Below, piece after piece: positions 1,912-9,900 of a stretch of DNA of 64,000 bases. The stretch is from an uncultured Caproiciproducens sp. (GTDB lineage Bacteria > Bacillota > Clostridia > Oscillospirales > Acutalibacteraceae). The stretch is taken from positions 186,001-250,000 of the forward strand of contig NZ_OY761810.1 in assembly GCF_963664915.1 (NCBI RefSeq), written 5' to 3'. Below the pieces are notes generated by a model, which ran no database searches, was not told the origin of the DNA, and was given only the letters and a program-made list of their open reading frames with translations. A program made the position numbers and the translations under genes. Numbering within the stretch: position 1 is the stretch's first letter; each line of letters opens with the position of its first letter.

Positions 1912-2226
1912 TTTTCAGTATCCTCCTCACATCTTCATCTTATTTCTCTACCATCAATTGTATAAAAAGAGCAAGAAAAAAATCCGTCTACAACATTAAA
2001 AGCAGAAAAATTGCACGCCAAACTCTATAGCAGCATCATTCTTTTACTCACAATATCAGCTCCCGCTTAGAAGATGCCCCCGCAGTATAATCAACGCAGC
2101 ATATTCAAGTAAGATTATTTAGATTTTAGCACATTTGAAAGATTTATGATACAATAAATTTAATTTCTTATTGATCGGTCAGCAACAAAAAACGCCCTTG
2201 CGAAAGCAAGAGTGTTTTTTAACACA
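1912..2226. other. 315-bp intergenic stretch between flavodoxin and pflA
   Basis: AT-rich, no credible ORF. It holds the upstream region of the flavodoxin gene and the pfl terminator at 2187-2220. No riboswitch or repeat was recognised. Confidence 0.5.
2187..2220 (-). terminator. Intrinsic terminator of the pflB-pflA operon
   Basis: A 15-bp stem with a GAAA tetraloop, one wobble and one mismatch, ending in six T on the minus strand, a few bases after the pflA stop. Confidence 0.8.
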
Positions 2227-2934
2227 TTAATGATATTCTTTGAGCAGAGTGTAAAGATTTTGAATTTCCTCTTCCGGACATTCGTCATAGTCGCGCAGCG
2301 GAAACGGAATTTCCATACGATCATACTTCGAACTACACAATTTTCTAAATGGCAGAAGCTCTATTCTTTGCAAATTTGAATATTCTCCGGCAATAGAGGC
2401 GATTTTTAAGATGTGGCTGCGGCTGTCTGTTAATTTCGGTACGACGACATGCCGGATCCAGAGCGGAACACGCATGGTTTCTGTCAGCTTTAAAAAATCT
2501 GTTACCTGATCCATGTTTCCTCCGCTGTAATGCAAGTAGTCATCCCCGCCGGAAAATTTCAGATCACACAGAACCAAGTCCGTAGAATGCAGCACGGTAC
2601 GGACTCCGTTGATATCCCCGATTCCGGCGGTGTCCAGCGCAGTGTGAACACCCGCTGCTTTCAGCCGGCGAAACAATTCCGCAACAAATTCCCATTGCAT
2701 CAGCGGTTCCCCGCCGGAAACGGTCACGCCTCCGTTTTTTTCGAAATACGGTTGAAATCGCATGATCTTATCAAAAATCTCATCCACGCTGTGTTCCTGC
2801 CCCGAGGTGCTCCACGTATCCGGATTGTGGCAATACGCACAGCGCAGGGAGCATCCTTGCATAAACACGACACAGCGCAGTCCGGGTCCGTCAACCGCCC
2901 CCAGACTTTGAATGGAATGAACAACCCCTTTCAT
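2227..2934 (-). CDS. pflA: Pyruvate formate-lyase activating enzyme (radical SAM)
   Basis: A 235-aa radical-SAM glycyl-radical activase. Cys28, Cys32 and Cys35 (GCSLRCAYCHNPDTW) form the CX3CX2C motif that binds the SAM-coordinating 4Fe-4S cluster, and VSGGEPLMQ is the SAM-contacting GGE motif. It installs the glycyl radical on PflB. Only the radical-SAM cluster is present; there is no extra ferredoxin insert as in other activases, which supports the PFL assignment. Its ATG overlaps the pflB stop (TAATG), so the two are translationally coupled. Confidence 0.95.
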   Translation of the reverse strand: MKGVVHSIQSLGAVDGPGLRCVVFMQGCSLRCAYCHNPDTWSTSGQEHSVDEIFDKIMRFQPYFEKNGGVTVSGGEPLMQWEFVAELFRRLKAAGVHTALDTAGIGDINGVRTVLHSTDLVLCDLKFSGGDDYLHYSGGNMDQVTDFLKLTETMRVPLWIRHVVVPKLTDSRSHILKIASIAGEYSNLQRIELLPFRKLCSSKYDRMEIPFPLRDYDECPEEEIQNLYTLLKEYH

Positions 2935-5165
2935 TACATCACCTCGTGAAAGGTTCTCGAAATTACTTCCATCTGCTGCTGTTTTGAAAGCTTGTGGAAA
3001 TTAACGGCATAGCCCGACACACGAATCGTAAGATTTGGATAGCATTCAGGATTTTCGTACGCTTTTATCAGGGTCTCCTTGTTCAGTACATTCACATTGA
3101 GGTGATGCGCCTTTTGCAGAAAATAACCGTCCAGAATGGAAATCAGGTTGCCGTAGCGCTGCTCATCTTCGTGTCCCAGCGCCTGCGGAACAATGGAAAA
3201 TGTATTTGAAATTCCGTCTTTGCAAACATCATAAGAGAGCTTCGCGACCGAATTCAGCGCAGCAAGCGCGCCGTTCTTCTCCCGGTTATGCATGGGGTTG
3301 GCACCGGGTGCAAAGGGCGCTCCCGCTTTTCTTCCGTCCGGCGTTGCGCCGGTCTTTTTGCCATAGACCACATTGGACGTGATCGTCAGGATGGACAGTG
3401 TGTGTTCGGCATCGCGGTAGGCTTGGTTCTTTTTCAGTGCTTCATAAAACAGCTTCACCTGCTCCTGTGCTATGGAGTCTACACGGTCGTCATCATTGCC
3501 GAAGGCGGGATACTCCCCGACAGTTTCAAAATCCGTAATCAGCCCGGTTTGATCGCGGATGCATTTCACTTTTGCATATTTGATTGCGGAAAGCGAATCC
3601 GCCAGCACAGACATTCCTGCTATGCCAAACGCCATAAAACGGTGTATGTCGGTATCGTGCAGAGCCATCTGCGTTTTCTCATATGCATATTTATCGTGCA
3701 TATAATGGATGATGTTCATCGCGCCGACATAGGTTTTGGCCAGCCATTCGCGATAAATATCCAGCAGCCGCAGCACTTGATCGTATTCGAGATATTCACC
3801 TTCGTAAGGGGCGTGTGCCGGCGCAATCTGTTTGCCGCTCTTTTCATCCCTGCCGCCGTTCAGGCTCATCAGAAGCAACTTTGCCAAATTAGCTCTTGCG
3901 CCGAAGAACTGCATATCCTTGCCGACCCGCATTGCGGAAACACAGCAGGCGATTGCGTAGTCGTCCCCAAATACCGGACGCATGATGTCATCATTTTCAT
4001 ACTGAATCGCATCCGTATCGCAGGAAACCTTTGCGGCAAACCGTTTAAAGCTTTCCGGAAGGCGGCCGGACCACAGCACAGTCAGATTCGGCTCCGCCGA
4101 AGAACCCAAATTATAAAGTGTATGCAGGATTCGATAGGAGCTCTTTGTGACTAAGGTTCTGCCGTCTTCCCCCATTCCGCCGACCGCTTCCGTAATCCAC
4201 ATGGGGTCTCCCGCGAAAAGCTCGTTGTATTCCGGTGTGCGCAGATGCCGTGCCATGCGCAGTTTCATGACAAAATCATCGAAAATTTCCTGTACCTGCG
4301 GCTCCGTCAACAGGCCGCTCCGAAGATCTCTTTCAAAATAAATATCCAGAAACGTACTCACGCGGCCCAGGCTCATTGCGGCGCCGTTTTGTTCCTTGAT
4401 TGCCCCGAGATAGGCAAAGTACAGCCACTGCACCGCCTCTTTTGCATTGGCTGCCGGCTGTGAAATGTCATAGCCGTACATGGACGCCATATCCCTGAGA
4501 TATCCCAAAAATGTGATCTGCTGATACAGTTCTTCCAGCAGACGGACATTTTCAGCAACCATGCTTTGCGCGGCAACATGCTGCTTGTCTTTTTTCTTTT
4601 CCTCAATCAGACGGTCAATTCCATAGAGCGCGACCCTGCGGTAGTCGCCGATGATTCTCCCTCTGCCGTAGGCATCGGGCAGTCCTGTAATAATTCCGCA
4701 GTGACGGGCGGCTTTGATATCGTCGCTGTACGCGCGGAAAACGCCTTCGTTGTGGGTCGTTCTGTACTGAAATTCATTTTCAACCTTCTCCGAAAGTTTA
4801 TAGCCATATGCCTCGCACGCTTTGCGCGTCATATTCAGCCCTCCGAAAGGATTCACTCCTCTTTTCAAAGGACGGTCGGTTTGAAGACCGACAATAATTT
4901 CTTTTTCTTTCTCCAAATAACCGGGCTGATAACTTGTGAGTGAACTGACCGTCTGCGTGTCAATATCCAGCACACCGCCGAACTCCTGTTCCAGCTCCAG
5001 CAGATGATTGAGTTTTTTCATCAACCCGCAGGTGCGCTCCGTGGCAGGCGCAAGAAACGCTTCATCGCCCTCGTATGGTGTGTAATTCATCTGGATAAAG
5101 TTTCTGACATCAATTTTTTCCTGCCAGCTTCCGTCGTTGAAATCCTTCCATGCCTGATGGTTCAT
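2934..5165 (-). CDS. pflB: Formate C-acetyltransferase (pyruvate formate-lyase)
   Basis: A 743-aa glycyl-radical enzyme converting pyruvate and CoA to acetyl-CoA and formate in the cytoplasm. The adjacent catalytic cysteines are Cys407-Cys408 (AIACCVSAM), and the radical glycine is Gly718 in [10 protein letters not shown] near the C-terminus. Length and both motifs match PFL rather than glycerol or choline lyases. The start is ATG 5165 behind GGAAGGAG; an upstream in-frame ATG lies in the leader without a ribosome binding site. The gene follows a riboswitch/terminator leader (5213-5320) and a strong promoter (5341-5370). Formate made here can feed formyl-tetrahydrofolate synthesis. Confidence 0.96.
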
Positions 5166-5189
5166 AAATGACTCCTTCCGATTAACCAA

Positions 5190-5243
5190 AGCATTTGGCT
5201 GCTCTTTTCAATAAAAAAAGAGCAACACTCGGTAATACCAAAT
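5190..5243 (-). promoter_or_regulatory. Second hairpin in pfl leader, overlapping the terminator
   Basis: Just after the terminator the leader repeats its motif: AGCATTTGG inside the terminator 5' arm can pair perfectly with CCAAATGCT close to the pflB ribosome binding site. The two structures are mutually exclusive. This could be a read-through structure shielding the start region or an alternative fold; its role is inferred. Confidence 0.4.
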
Positions 5244-5250
5244 GCTGCCC
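5213..5250 (-). terminator. Riboswitch-linked intrinsic terminator upstream of pflB
   Basis: In the minus-strand RNA, GGGCAGCAUUUGGU pairs along its full 14 nt (with G-U pairs) with ACCGAGUGUUGCUC around an AUU loop and is followed by seven U. The 5' arm begins within the conserved UCUGGGCAG of the aptamer, so aptamer folding and terminator folding compete. Confidence 0.8.
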
Positions 5251-5320
5251 AGACGGTCGGCTGAAAGAAGACTTTTATTCCACTGTGGTTGATCCACAAT
5301 TATCCGTCAGTAATAAAAGC
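5245..5320 (-). ncRNA. ZTP riboswitch (pfl motif) aptamer
   Basis: In the minus-strand RNA: P1 CUUUUAUU (5319-5312) pairs with AAUAAAAG (5279-5272); inside it lies ACUGACGGA, then hairpin UGUGG-AUCAA-CCACA (5298-5284) and GUGGA; 3' of P1 comes CCGUCUGGGCAG (5256-5245). This follows the known ZTP riboswitch order GACUGGCG / hairpin / GGGGA / CCGCCUGGGCA. The pseudoknot GACGG-CCGUC replaces the common GGCG-CGCC by compensatory changes. ZTP (ZMP) rises when 10-formyl-tetrahydrofolate is short; binding should prevent the overlapping terminator and raise PFL, supplying formate. Confidence 0.82.
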
Positions 5321-5340
5321 CTTTATGTTGTTGTAGATTG

Positions 5341-5370
5341 ATTATAATATACACACGCAAAGTCTGTCAA
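5341..5370 (-). promoter_or_regulatory. Promoter of the pflB-pflA operon
   Basis: TTGACA (5370-5365), an 18-bp spacer and TATAAT (5346-5341) on the minus strand. Transcription would begin a few bases before the riboswitch, leaving a leader of about 165 nt. Confidence 0.8.
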
Positions 5371-5439
5371 TAAAGTTTTTGTTTATTTTAGGTTTATATT
5401 TTTGAAATGTTAAATAAATATAAAAAAATCGTCGAATCT

Positions 5440-5468
5440 CTTTGATCCTTATAAAAATATGCTATAAT
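5440..5468 (+). promoter_or_regulatory. Likely promoter of desulfoferrodoxin
   Basis: TATAAT at 5463-5468 is preceded by weak -35 candidates (CTTTGA at 17 bp or TTGATC at 15 bp). No clear PerR or Fur box was found nearby. Confidence 0.45.
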
Positions 5469-5599
5469 ACAAATAGAATATTTTTAATGTACAGGCCGGT
5501 TTTTTTAACGAAGACAGAGGTTATAATCAAACTGATTAGATGGCACACAACAAATCATGCCATTTAATATAAATAAAAAAATGAAAAGAGGTTGTAAGA

Positions 5600-5974
5600 A
5601 TGTCCAAAGTTGTTTTTTACCGCTGTGAGATTTGCGGAAATATGGTAGCACTGATTAGGAGCGGCGGCGGCACACTCACCTGCTGCGGGCAGAGCATGAC
5701 AAAGCTTGAACCGAACACAACCGATGCCGCAACAGAAAAACACGTTCCGTTCATCACAAAAGAAAACGGAAAAATCAAAGTTCAGATTGGTTCGACCATT
5801 CATCCAATGCTTCTTGAGCACCACATCGAATGGATTGCACTGGATACCGGCGAGAAGGTCGAAATTGTGTATCTAAAACCCGGTATGGACCCGAAAGCAG
5901 AATTCAATGAAGTTGAATCCGGCACAGTTTACGAGTATTGCAATCTTCATGGTCTTTGGAAAGCTGAATTTTAA
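5600..5974 (+). CDS. dfx: Desulfoferrodoxin (superoxide reductase)
   Basis: A 124-aa two-domain protein that reduces superoxide to peroxide without making oxygen, typical of anaerobes. The N-terminal desulforedoxin centre uses Cys9, Cys12, Cys28 and Cys29 (CEIC...CC). The C-terminal superoxide-reductase centre has histidines in EKHVPF and HPMLLEHHIEWI and the Cys-His pair in CNLHGLW. Both iron centres are complete, so this is the two-iron class. AGAGG precedes ATG 5600. It is transcribed alone, divergently from pflB. Confidence 0.95.
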   Translation: MSKVVFYRCEICGNMVALIRSGGGTLTCCGQSMTKLEPNTTDAATEKHVPFITKENGKIKVQIGSTIHPMLLEHHIEWIALDTGEKVEIVYLKPGMDPKAEFNEVESGTVYEYCNLHGLWKAEF

Positions 5975-5993
5975 TCTTTTTGATATCGCTTTT

Positions 5994-6033
5994 AAAGAAT
6001 GGCTTTGCGGAAAAATCCGCAAAGCCATTCTTT
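5994..6033. terminator. Bidirectional terminator between dfx and lysA
   Basis: A perfect 17-bp inverted repeat (5994-6010 / 6017-6033) with a 6-nt loop and A/T runs at both ends, between convergent genes. Confidence 0.88.
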
Positions 6034-6074
6034 ATAGTGATAAAACAACCCCAATTACATTTTGACCGTGACAA

Positions 6075-7328
6075 TCAATCAAAAATCCCTGTGAAATCCA
6101 GCGTTGCAAAATAATCTTCCGGGGTTTCCGCACGGCGGATCAATTCTGCCGATCCGTCTTCCCTGAGAAGTACTTCCGCGGAACGCAACCGGCCATTATA
6201 GTTATATCCCATGGCATGACCGTGCGCTCCGGCATCATGGATGACAAGCAGGTCCCCTTTGTCAATTTTCGGGAACATACGGTCAATGGCAAACTTATCG
6301 TTGTTTTCACACAGACTGCCGACAATGTCGTATTTGTGGTCGCAGTCGTCATCTTCCTTGCCCATCACCGAAATGTGGTGGTATGCCCCATACATGGCAG
6401 GACGAAGGAGATTGGCCGCACAGGCATCCACACCGATATATTCTTTATAGATGTGTTTTTCATGGATTGCGGTCGTCACAAGGCAGCCGTACGGTCCAAG
6501 GATGAAACGGCCAAGCTCGGTATAGATGGCGACATCTCCCAGTCCGGCAGGTACAAGAATTTCTTCATATGCTTTGCGGACGCCTTCTCCGATTTTTGCA
6601 ATATCAGCCGGTTTTTCTTCGGGACGATATGGAATTCCCACCCCGCCGGACAGATTGATGAAAGAAACTCCTATGCCCGTTTTGTGGTAAAGATCGACAG
6701 CCGTCTGGAACAAAATACCGGCAAGCGTTGGATAGTACCCGTCATCCGCCGTATTGCTGGCAAGAAAAGCATGAAGCCCAAACCGTTTTGCGCCGAGTCC
6801 CCGCAGCTTTGTGTAACCTTCTTCAAGTTGGTCATAGGTAAAGCCGTACTTGGCGTCGCCGGGATTGTCCATAATCGCATTGCTGATTTGGAAAGTTCCG
6901 CCCGGATTGTAACGGCAGCAGATGGTTTCGGGGATACCGGCCACCGATTTTAAAAAGTCAATGTGAGTAAAGTCATCGAGGTTGATCAATCCCCCCAGCT
7001 TTTTTGCCAGAACGAATTCTTCCGCCGGTGTATCGTTTGATGAAAACATGATGTCCTCCGCCTGAAAGCCCACCGCGTTTGAAAGCATCAGTTCGGTCAG
7101 CGAGGAACAGTCAACTCCGCAGCCCTCTTCTTTTAAAATGCGCAATATGGTTGGATTTGGTGTTGCCTTCACGGCGAAATATTCCCGGAAGCCGCTGTTC
7201 CATGCAAAAGCCTTGTACAGCCTGCGTACGTTTTCCCTGATTCCTTTTTCATCGTAAAGATAAAATGGAGTCGGAAATTGAGCCGTGATTTTTTTCAGTT
7301 GTTCCAAATGTACGAAGGTATTTTTCAA
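6075..7328 (-). CDS. lysA: Diaminopimelate decarboxylase-like PLP enzyme
   Basis: A 417-aa fold-type III PLP decarboxylase. Lys54 in FAVKATPNP is the Schiff-base lysine, LSGGVGIPY is the glycine-rich phosphate loop, ELGRFILGPYG is the substrate-specificity helix, and GSLCENNDK plus HDAGAHGHAMGYNYNG carry the Cys and Tyr of the dimer active site. It most likely makes L-lysine from meso-diaminopimelate; related carboxynorspermidine decarboxylases are less likely because the HDAGAHG block is DAPDC-like. It starts 7 bp after the TrmB regulator and ends at the terminator 5994-6033. Confidence 0.85.
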   Translation of the reverse strand: MKNTFVHLEQLKKITAQFPTPFYLYDEKGIRENVRRLYKAFAWNSGFREYFAVKATPNPTILRILKEEGCGVDCSSLTELMLSNAVGFQAEDIMFSSNDTPAEEFVLAKKLGGLINLDDFTHIDFLKSVAGIPETICCRYNPGGTFQISNAIMDNPGDAKYGFTYDQLEEGYTKLRGLGAKRFGLHAFLASNTADDGYYPTLAGILFQTAVDLYHKTGIGVSFINLSGGVGIPYRPEEKPADIAKIGEGVRKAYEEILVPAGLGDVAIYTELGRFILGPYGCLVTTAIHEKHIYKEYIGVDACAANLLRPAMYGAYHHISVMGKEDDDCDHKYDIVGSLCENNDKFAIDRMFPKIDKGDLLVIHDAGAHGHAMGYNYNGRLRSAEVLLREDGSAELIRRAETPEDYFATLDFTGIFD

Positions 7329-7335
7329 AACAGTT

Positions 7336-8031
7336 TCAGCTTCCTTTCGTGACAGTAATCAGTGTTATTTCATTTTTCAGCGCTTCTTTAAAGAGCTCTA
7401 TCAAGTTGCGCTTCTGAGAATACAGACAGGTGGACTCGGAACCCGCCGCGATATCACCGGTCAAAACATTTTTCGAGTCGGCAATCAGACGAATCTGGTG
7501 CTGCTCGGTTTTCGTGTGATACACCAGCGCACCTTCCAGTACAAACGGAGGATCGGTGATGATAACCACTTTCAGCCCGCGCATCAGCGCCGACTGTATC
7601 TGCGGCAGCAGCACCAAAAGCATCTGTTCTGACACGGAAAGATAGATGCGTTCTTTCGCCGCGTCAATCATATTCTTCATCTTATCAAAAATATTGGATT
7701 CGCCTTTAATCGTGATATATCCTTCGCTCGCTTCTCTCTGCTTCGGCGCAGCTTTTAAAAGCAGTTCCCGATATTCCTGCATGCGCCGTATGCGATTGTC
7801 GCAAAATTCTTCAACCGGTACCGGAAGGTAATGCGTTGCAGTGTCTTCCTCGACATAGGCCGCACCTTTTTCAACAAGGCCGGCTAACGCCGTATAGGTA
7901 TTTGAACGGGATATCCCGGACGCTTTCGCGGCTTCATACCCTGTCAATTTCCCTTCGGAGCAGAGCAGCAGATACAGGGCCGACTCCTGGCGTGTAAGAT
8001 TATAATATCCAAGCAATTCCGCCAGATCCAT
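7336..8031 (-). CDS. TrmB-family transcriptional regulator
   Basis: A 231-aa protein with an N-terminal winged helix (about residues 5-75; KASGISRSNTYTALAGLVEKG is the recognition helix region) and a C-terminal ligand-binding domain (IYLSVSEQMLLVLLP, VVIITDPPF). It is the first gene of a two-gene operon with lysA, so lysine or a precursor is a plausible effector, though that is inference. A dyad overlapping its -10 (8048-8073) fits autoregulation. GGGAGG precedes ATG 8031. Confidence 0.8.
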   Translation of the reverse strand: MDLAELLGYYNLTRQESALYLLLCSEGKLTGYEAAKASGISRSNTYTALAGLVEKGAAYVEEDTATHYLPVPVEEFCDNRIRRMQEYRELLLKAAPKQREASEGYITIKGESNIFDKMKNMIDAAKERIYLSVSEQMLLVLLPQIQSALMRGLKVVIITDPPFVLEGALVYHTKTEQHQIRLIADSKNVLTGDIAAGSESTCLYSQKRNLIELFKEALKNEITLITVTKGS

Positions 8032-8047
8032 TGTCCCGCCTCCCGCA

Positions 8048-8073
8048 ATAGTGTTTCTCTATAGGAACACTAT
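8048..8073. promoter_or_regulatory. Candidate operator of the TrmB regulator
   Basis: ATAGTGTTTC and GGAACACTAT form a 10-bp dyad with one mismatch around a 6-bp centre. It overlaps the -10 box and transcription start of the trmB-lysA promoter. Confidence 0.6.
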
Positions 8074-8097
8074 ACTTCATACAAACGGATTTGTCAA
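8069..8097 (-). promoter_or_regulatory. Promoter of the trmB-lysA operon
   Basis: TTGACA (8097-8092), 17-bp spacer, TATAGT (8074-8069) on the minus strand; a near-consensus sigma-A promoter. Confidence 0.82.
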
Positions 8098-8124
8098 CAT
8101 CTCAGAAAAATTTATGTCATTTTT

Positions 8125-9900
8125 TTAGTATTTCTGATTCGCAGGTACATCTTGCCGTTCACCCAAATCTCCTGAACCGACACTTCCGTCCTGCGCCCTT
8201 GTGTCAGCGGCATAAGAACCCTTCGCTTTCAACTTGAAACTGCCAACCAGCTTGCTGAGCATTTCCGCCTGAGCCGACAGCTCCTCACTTGCAGCCGCGC
8301 TTTCCTCCGCTGTGGCGGAATTTGTCTGTACTACTGCAGACACCTGGTCCACGCCGCTTGTAATCTGCTCGATCGCGGTAGCCTGGTCTGAAGAAGCGAT
8401 ATCGATTTTTAAAATAGTTTCCCCTACAAGCTCCACCTTAGCCGCAATTTCGTTCAGCCCTTTTGCAGTTACGTCGGCAATCGCAGTACCATTCCTGACA
8501 CTTTGGATGGAACTCTCTATCAGATCGGTGGTTTGTTTGGCCGCATTGGCGGATTTGCTTGCAAGGTTGCGGACTTCATCGGCCACCACAGCAAACCCTT
8601 TTCCGGCGCTTCCCGCCCTTGCCGCTTCAACAGCAGCATTTAAGGCAAGAATATTGGTCTGGAATGCAATGTCATCGATTACTTTGATAATTTTTCCTAT
8701 TTGGCTGGACGAGGTGCTTATTTCCTCCATGGAGGAAAGCATCTGCTGCATTTGCTCGTTTCCATGCTCCACCTGTGTAACTGTTTCTTTTACGTAACCT
8801 GCCATAACCTTGACATTTTCGGCGTTTTCACTGACTTTATTGGAAACTTCACTGGCGGAAGCGGCAAGCTCCTCCACAGAGCTCGCCTGTTCGGTAGCGC
8901 CCTGCGCCAGCTCCTGCGCTCCATCGGAAACCTGCACCGCGCCGCTGTTGACCTGTTCCGCCGAAGTGTTGATTGCTGAAAGCGTTTGGTTTAATCCATC
9001 CGATATCTTGATCAGCGCCTGCTTAATCGGAATAAAATCGCCGATATATTCCTGTGTGATATCGGCGGTCATATCTCCCTGCGCCATACGGCCCAGTTTA
9101 TCTGAAATATCCGCAACATACAATTTAAGGGTCGAGGCGGCCGACTGGAGCGATTTGGCGAGAGAACCGATTTCATCTTTGGACGTATATGTAATATCGA
9201 CATCCAGCTTTCCTTGCGCGATTCTTTCGGCGGCGTCGGCCATTTCATTAATCGGTTTGCTCAACGCTCTTGAAAGCCAGATCCCCCATACAATGGAAAC
9301 ACAGACGCCAAAAACAATAATGGCTATTAGGGCAATCATCATGGCATTGGCAAGCTGATTATTGGAGTCATTGTTTGCTTTCGCATTATTTACACGGTTC
9401 TGCATGCATTGCGTGTAATTGTCGGTTACTTTTTTATTGATTTCAACCAATTTACTAAGGTTGGTCATTGCGTCATTGATATTTTTTTCTTGTGTGTCCT
9501 TCACAATTGCTTCAAATGTCGGCATAAATGATTCATCAAACATTTTGCTGGTTTCATCAAACAGAGTTTGGGTTGCTGCCGTCGATATGGTCGGCTCATA
9601 CTGCTCGACCGCATCCTGATACAGTTTTTTATATTTTTCAGTGTTTTCGACAACTGTTTTTAATTCCTCTGAGTTGTCATAATACAGAATATAATCTCTT
9701 GACAATCCCCTTAAGCGGTCCAAATTCAAAAGAATATCAGACATGACCGGTAACGGTACTGTTTGTTGTTCATAGAGTTTTGTACTGGAGGTTTTCATTT
9801 GCAGCATACTGTAAATTCCGGCCGCTCCAATGATCGCTGTGATCAATGAAATCGCCAGAAATGAAAAAATTAATTTTTTTGCAATTTTTAAATTCTTCAT
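8125..9900 (-). CDS. Methyl-accepting chemotaxis protein
   Basis: A 591-aa membrane chemoreceptor. Order: TM1 (about residues 9-30), a four-helix-bundle sensor domain outside the cell (30-185), TM2 (188-210), HAMP (212-265) and a long cytoplasmic coiled-coil signalling domain (about 300-560). The hairpin tip [21 protein letters not shown] contacts CheA/CheW, and flanking Glu/Gln-rich helices carry methylation sites. No C-terminal CheR-tethering pentapeptide is seen. No other chemotaxis gene is in the window. A sigma-D-like promoter lies about 235 bp upstream (10136-10163), matching control with the motility regulon. Confidence 0.93.

Follow-up and report, generated by a model that had tools for sequence, protein, structure and literature searches.

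A ZMP/ZTP riboswitch ahead of pflB-pflA in an uncultured Caproiciproducens and a recurrent complementary arm past its terminator

Described ZTP switches and related systems

The 2010 study of pfl RNAs is reportedly by Weinberg et al., and the ligand of the ZTP class was named a few years after it. In the available part of that study (PMC2864571), terminators overlap pfl RNAs, activation by ligand is expected, and a logic running from Pfl through formate, Fhs and formyl-THF to PurH is given for these RNAs. The Thermosinus RNA is presented in the excerpted text of PMC7337938 as an ON switch in which, without ligand, P3 residues pair into the terminator. As far as the available source goes, the pfl riboswitch of C. 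beijerinckii (RF01750) has the same aptamer, pseudoknot, CUGGGC core, terminator reusing the core strand, pfl target and ON logic as the locus described here. A further likeness lies in its ZMP-bound read-through RNA, where, according to the excerpt of PMC10687018, an alternative hairpin arises from the downstream terminator strand and is said to preclude terminator nucleation; this hairpin comprises nucleotides 101-127, taken from that excerpt to fall inside the terminator strand ahead of the U tract, whereas the partner here lies past the U tract.

B. subtilis vmlR is similar, in the available portion of PMC9226507, in that antitermination frees residues whose pairing in the read-through RNA alters the structure at the start site; it differs in using an antibiotic-stalled leader peptide and no aptamer, and in opening a dedicated Shine-Dalgarno hairpin (SL-4). 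In a synthetic ZTP OFF switch with a 'flipping domain' (PMC10085676, available in part), a segment likewise pairs with the invader strand that is left when ligand blocks strand displacement, but this segment is engineered, precedes the poly-U and makes a new terminator, whereas the natural arm follows the U tract. The fluoride (crcB) riboswitch RF01734 is also an ON switch whose terminator overlaps the aptamer; it differs in lacking an excess of complementarity past the terminator in the 22 usable loci (z 0.2).

The pflB leader and its predicted switch

All coordinates refer to the window, i.e. the whole stretch of 64,000 nt that was analysed. Along its minus strand, positions 5370-5163 hold in this order a promoter, aptamer, terminator, spacer and the start codon of pflB (ATG, 5165-5163), and transcription is expected to start a few bases ahead of the aptamer (Table 1). 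Both pflB and pflA score above their NCBIfam cut-offs, the TIGR01255 scan of pflB having been run from 5174, three codons ahead of the true start. Purine or one-carbon genes are the usual gene context of RF01750, and pflB-pflA downstream agree with it; a formate-THF ligase (fhs) is also encoded in the genome (PF01268, 898 bits). The divergent neighbour at 5600-5974 (plus strand) encodes a desulfoferrodoxin-like protein, for which the full-length model gives 135 bits, under its cut-off of 147, with both domain models above theirs. Downstream of pflBA lie glutathione-peroxidase-like (820-1365) and flavodoxin-like (1411-1911) genes, both on the minus strand and neither reaching a curated cut-off.

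Table 1. Features of the pflB-pflA locus, in window coordinates
Feature	Position	Strand	Basis
Putative sigma-70 promoter, TTGACA-18-TATAAT	5341..5370	-	12/12 consensus match by pattern scan
ZMP/ZTP aptamer (RF01750)	5240..5324	-	69.4 bits (gathering score 39); full-length match
Pseudoknot 5' strand, GACGG	5304..5308	-	Sequence; usual form in 229/246 leaders
Pseudoknot 3' strand, CCGUC	5252..5256	-	Sequence; complementary to 5308-5304
Intrinsic terminator hairpin, 14 bp	5220..5250	-	-19.8 kcal/mol; pattern scan; 5' arm in aptamer core CUGGGCAG
U7 tract of the terminator	5213..5219	-	Sequence
Post-terminator arm, GAAAAGAGCAGC	5198..5209	-	Can pair with terminator 3' strand and U tract, GUUGCUCUUUUU (5226-5215)
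CAAAUGC segment	5191..5197	-	Could pair with upper terminator 5' arm, GCAUUUG (5245-5239); weaker evidence
Shine-Dalgarno of pflB, AAGGAG	5172..5177	-	Sequence
pflB, formate C-acetyltransferase	2934..5165	-	ORF; TIGR01255, 1145 bits, cut-off 994
pflA, pyruvate formate-lyase activating enzyme	2227..2934	-	TIGR02493, 260 bits, cut-off 232

In an Rfam covariance search, RF01750 at 5324-5240 was the sole match at gathering level in the window and the sole RF01750 match reported in the 3.1-Mb genome at E <= 0.001. It runs over model positions 1-86, end to end, with E 3.5e-9 and no non-standard pair flagged, and P1/P2, the J1/2-L3 pseudoknot and the CUGGGC core are all present in the Rfam alignment. 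A search of 2000-8500 at permissive E returned it together with seven others, all seven under their gathering scores. The preliminary description had recognised the parts of a ZTP aptamer in the right order; all of the elements it named were found on the minus strand, and the covariance match is significant. Among 11 genomes of the genus, seven carry an RF01750 match, which stands ahead of pflB in six, the seventh (L015) having no recognised gene; Faecalispora jeddahensis and Caproiciproducens galactitolivorans are named species among the nearest pflB loci.

The terminator (GGGCAGCAUUUGGU-AUU-ACCGAGUGUUGCUC; z -7.9, 0/200 shuffles as good) has GGGCAG in common with the aptamer core. Its 5' arm starts at the first G of GGGC inside CUGGGCAG (5252-5245), and aptamer and terminator are therefore mutually exclusive. 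The 14-bp hairpin with seven U that had been reported to start in the aptamer's 3' core is confirmed. For comparison, 246 distinct leaders were used, the window's among them, which BLAST assigned to 141 pflB, 77 purE, 4 pflA and 24 other genes. By our rule a terminator was found in 206 of them, its 5' arm starting at the same G in 160; the 40 leaders without one by this rule comprise 20 pflB, 13 purE, 2 pflA and 5 other.

The GACGG/CCGUC pseudoknot had been singled out as a notable variant. It does depart from the Rfam consensus GGCG/CGCC and still pairs, but among the 246 leaders, whose entry required a match to permissive core and junction patterns, 229 (window included) have CUGACGG with CCGUC, and 10 have CUGGCGG with CCGCC. 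Because 229 share the pair, the variant is unremarkable, and its standing as a notable departure was rejected; by this comparison GACGG/CCGUC is a signature of the clade and the normal state there.

We infer ligand response and termination at this locus as follows. Without ligand, the terminator 3' strand would invade the CUGGGCAG strand of the aptamer, the 14-bp terminator would form and polymerase would stop in U7. With ZMP/ZTP bound, at low formyl-folate, the aptamer would hold the core strand and transcription would enter pflB-pflA, read-through of which would provide formate for formyl-THF. An ON switch for formate supply had been proposed at the outset, and is supported, since the pfl/ZTP class is read in this way in print; the family had been called a known one, and its ON-switch interpretation was indeed published in 2010. 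Judged from sequence, aptamer and platform make up a ZMP/ZTP riboswitch of the kind usual for clostridial pflB, and the observation as first described adds an ordinary case to a known class.

Complementarity past the U tract

When the leaders of relatives were read, the sequence past the U tract was found often to repeat the complement of the terminator 3' strand, a pattern first seen in a set of 73 leaders (of 80 loci). In the window the arm lies 31-42 nt beyond the Rfam end of the aptamer, and 5209-5198 with 5226-5215 gives a 12-bp hairpin of -14.4 kcal/mol (0/200 shuffles as good). Its helix score was matched by 6 of 5000 spacer shuffles; against the 3' strand alone, with the U tract excluded, the arm is marginal (shuffle p 0.05-0.06). 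A long-range helix of 5245-5239 with 5197-5191 is possible as well; across pflB leaders the last 10 nt of the 5' arm show excess pairing with the downstream sequence (z -4.3), a weaker signal than that of the 3' strand. The block GAAAAGAGC(A/G)GC is kept in the four nearest leaders of the genus, and related arms occur in L022, L031 and L034. A nine-leader multiple alignment misplaces the arm in L011, L022 and L032, and no pair counts were drawn from it. In the pflB ZTP leader L044, upstream of position 2501, a GGGGUCAGGCCCC repeat sits between the U tract and the complementary arm.

For a test at group level, the last 12 nt of the terminator 3' strand were paired with the leader's own downstream sequence and, for comparison, with the downstream sequences of other leaders. 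Requiring at least 20 nt of N-free downstream sequence reduced the 121 pflB leaders with terminator to 117, and the 64 purE leaders to 56. The 117 pflB leaders gave -8.79 kcal/mol with their own downstream sequence and -7.07 kcal/mol with swapped ones (sd 0.18, z -9.4, 0/10000 permutations), and z was -9.3 after dereplication (n=108). As a strict hold-out we used L137-L264, which were fetched only after the idea of the arm had formed; it begins at L137 because L111-L136 had already been fetched and were in the first tests. Its pflB leaders gave z -3.9 (n=31, 1/10000 permutations), and z -3.5 once near copies of earlier leaders were removed (n=29, 10/10000); the looser hold-out L111-L264 gave z -3.6 (n=41).

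No excess of own-downstream pairing was found in the 56 purE leaders (z +0.6), in the 15 other and pflA leaders (z -0.7), or for the first 12 nt of the terminator 5' arm in pflB leaders (z +0.6). The reversed 3' strand in pflB leaders was not quite null (z -3.2), and part of the arm signal may therefore be composition. Downstream length does not explain the signal: pflB leaders with 20-45 nt downstream gave z -5.4 (n=69), and purE leaders with at least 30 nt gave z +0.5 (n=29).

A strong arm was defined as an ungapped helix score of at least 12. By this measure 27 of the 117 pflB leaders have one, against 5.5 expected with swapped and 1.9 with shuffled sequences; at a score of at least 13 there are 25, against 3.5 and 0.8, respectively. 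The strict hold-out contains 4 in 31 (0.3 expected), and the purE leaders 0 in 56; at a threshold of 10, purE reaches 3/56 against 3.9 expected from shuffles, which is chance level. In the 27 strong-arm leaders the median loop is 11 nt and the median distance from arm end to start codon 29 nt. Pair types vary along the helix, position -6 being U-A in 11, C-G in 10 and U-G in 6, a count that leans towards pairing because the helices were selected for pairing. The arm may have originated by copying of the terminator 5' arm: of 236 positions compared, 194 are identical in the two; among the 42 that differ, the arm is Watson-Crick where the 5' arm is G-U 25 times and the reverse holds 17 times, a count biased by the same choice of helices. 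Recurrence of the putative arm in part of the pflB ZTP leaders is statistically supported. The arm was also considered as a second terminator, which was ruled out by the lack of a U-rich stretch after it in all of the 27 strong cases (0/27).

Candidate roles of the arm

As the arm is transcribed after the U tract, it cannot steer termination itself; its function we infer from its pairing. After ZMP-driven read-through, 5209-5198 would capture the unused terminator 3' strand and the U tract, and this capture would block re-formation of the terminator and keep the ON fold, a lock for which the C. beijerinckii hairpin offers a precedent. The 3' strand has CUC followed by several U at its end, and capture would also hold it away from the Shine-Dalgarno; ends of the 3' strand and U tract such as GCCCUUUU resemble the anti-Shine-Dalgarno. 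A ZTP/ZMP-responsive transcriptional ON switch for pflB-pflA, with a post-terminator arm that captures the unused 3' strand after read-through, is in our judgement the probable reading of the locus.

The hairpin might instead lie outside the switch and serve to stabilise the 5' end of the read-through mRNA or to mark it for processing. A compact 12-bp hairpin shortly ahead of pflB would suit such a role, pflB is expected to be highly expressed, and arms occur in T-box leaders too (14/58). A stabiliser would, however, have no need to pair with the terminator strand, yet the partner of the arm tracks that strand across species, and a strong arm is found in 0 of 56 purE leaders; we regard this explanation as unlikely, though still worth serious weight.

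Accessibility of the Shine-Dalgarno was predicted for 114 pflB and 50 purE leaders. With the 3' strand free, it was 0.54 in the strong-arm leaders (n=27) and 0.37 with shuffled spacers (p 0.0009), with a smaller gain in the remaining 87 pflB leaders, which have no strong arm (0.45 vs 0.38, p 0.010), and none in the purE leaders (n=50; 0.42 vs 0.42, p 0.89). In these predictions the gain would follow partly from any strong helix of arm and 3' strand. For the window, the predicted value rises from 0.23 when the terminator is formed to 0.71 when the strand is free, which would fit a dual switch in which the formed terminator leaves the U tract free to mask the Shine-Dalgarno of leaky transcripts and, with ligand, capture of the U tract by the arm exposes the Shine-Dalgarno; the available part of PMC9226507 proposes such coupling for B. 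subtilis vmlR. Over the 27 strong-arm leaders, however, accessibility is alike in both states (0.52 with the terminator formed, 0.54 with the strand free, p 0.61), and dual control of transcription and translation was rejected as a general rule. The genus members L006 and L008 go the opposite way; their accessibility with the strand free is only 0.03 and 0.02, and the translation benefit is therefore not conserved. For the window itself we hold the dual switch to be rather improbable.

Less probable again is a plain ZTP ON switch beside which the downstream complementarity is a chance match without function. By helix score 90 of the 117 pflB leaders are without a strong arm, and purE leaders manage without one (0/56), which speaks for this reading; against it stand the rarity of the window's helix score among its shuffles (6/5000), the permutation tests on the pflB group and on the later-fetched leaders, and the conservation of the GAAAAGAGC(A/G)GC block among the four closest leaders of the genus, together with the related arms of L022, L031 and L034. 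That the aptamer has decayed and lost ZMP binding is scarcely credible, given a 69.4-bit full-length match without non-standard pairs and the presence of the aptamer ahead of pflB in six of the 11 genomes from the genus.

Other leader classes were compared as well. Of 70 T-box loci fetched, 68 were entered (L321 was too short and L365 a repeat) and 58 used; 14 of these reach a helix score of at least 12, against 1.4 from shuffles, and 8 of 49 do so after dereplication, against 1.1 expected (z -4.0). A single orthologous leader accounts for eight of the 14, and its product resembles TyrRS. T-box leaders with an arm are L302 (from the same genome as the window, G000:C1:2611920-2612156), L297, L306, L308, L309, L310, L312, L319, L320, L340, L342, L353, L362 and L363; CAGGGGG with CCCCCUG is an example of such pairing. 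Fluoride leaders (RF01734; 22 of 30 loci usable) showed no excess of post-terminator complementarity (z 0.2). The genome studied here has eight RF01734 matches outside the window (G000:C1:70863-75851, 175405 and 1102621), seven of the eight above cut-off and six lying within 5 kb and on both strands.

We offer as a tentative generalisation, which we would sooner doubt than assert, that antitermination leaders may often have a third, post-terminator arm directed against the terminator 3' strand, acting after read-through only, when it would capture the unused strand, lock the ON fold and leave the ribosome site open; that it may have arisen separately in ZTP-pflB and T-box leaders; and that it may have been missed because models of expression platforms reach no further than the U tract. 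In the parts of the open-licence literature that were covered, an arm past the U tract is described for no ZTP leader, the closest descriptions being the C. beijerinckii hairpin, the vmlR attenuator and the synthetic flipping domain. In the available part of a 2026 covariation study of whole riboswitches (PMC13273304), the sequence after the ZTP aptamer is limited to 5-35 nt, so that an arm at 31-42 nt could hardly have been seen in it.

The switch and its interpretation were already known for the class, and the added finding is the recurrent post-terminator arm. The switch itself is one more pflB example of a class whose logic dates from 2010. If the arm is real, the expression platform of a riboswitch would extend past the U tract, and cells would manage the fate of the read-through RNA besides the decision to terminate.
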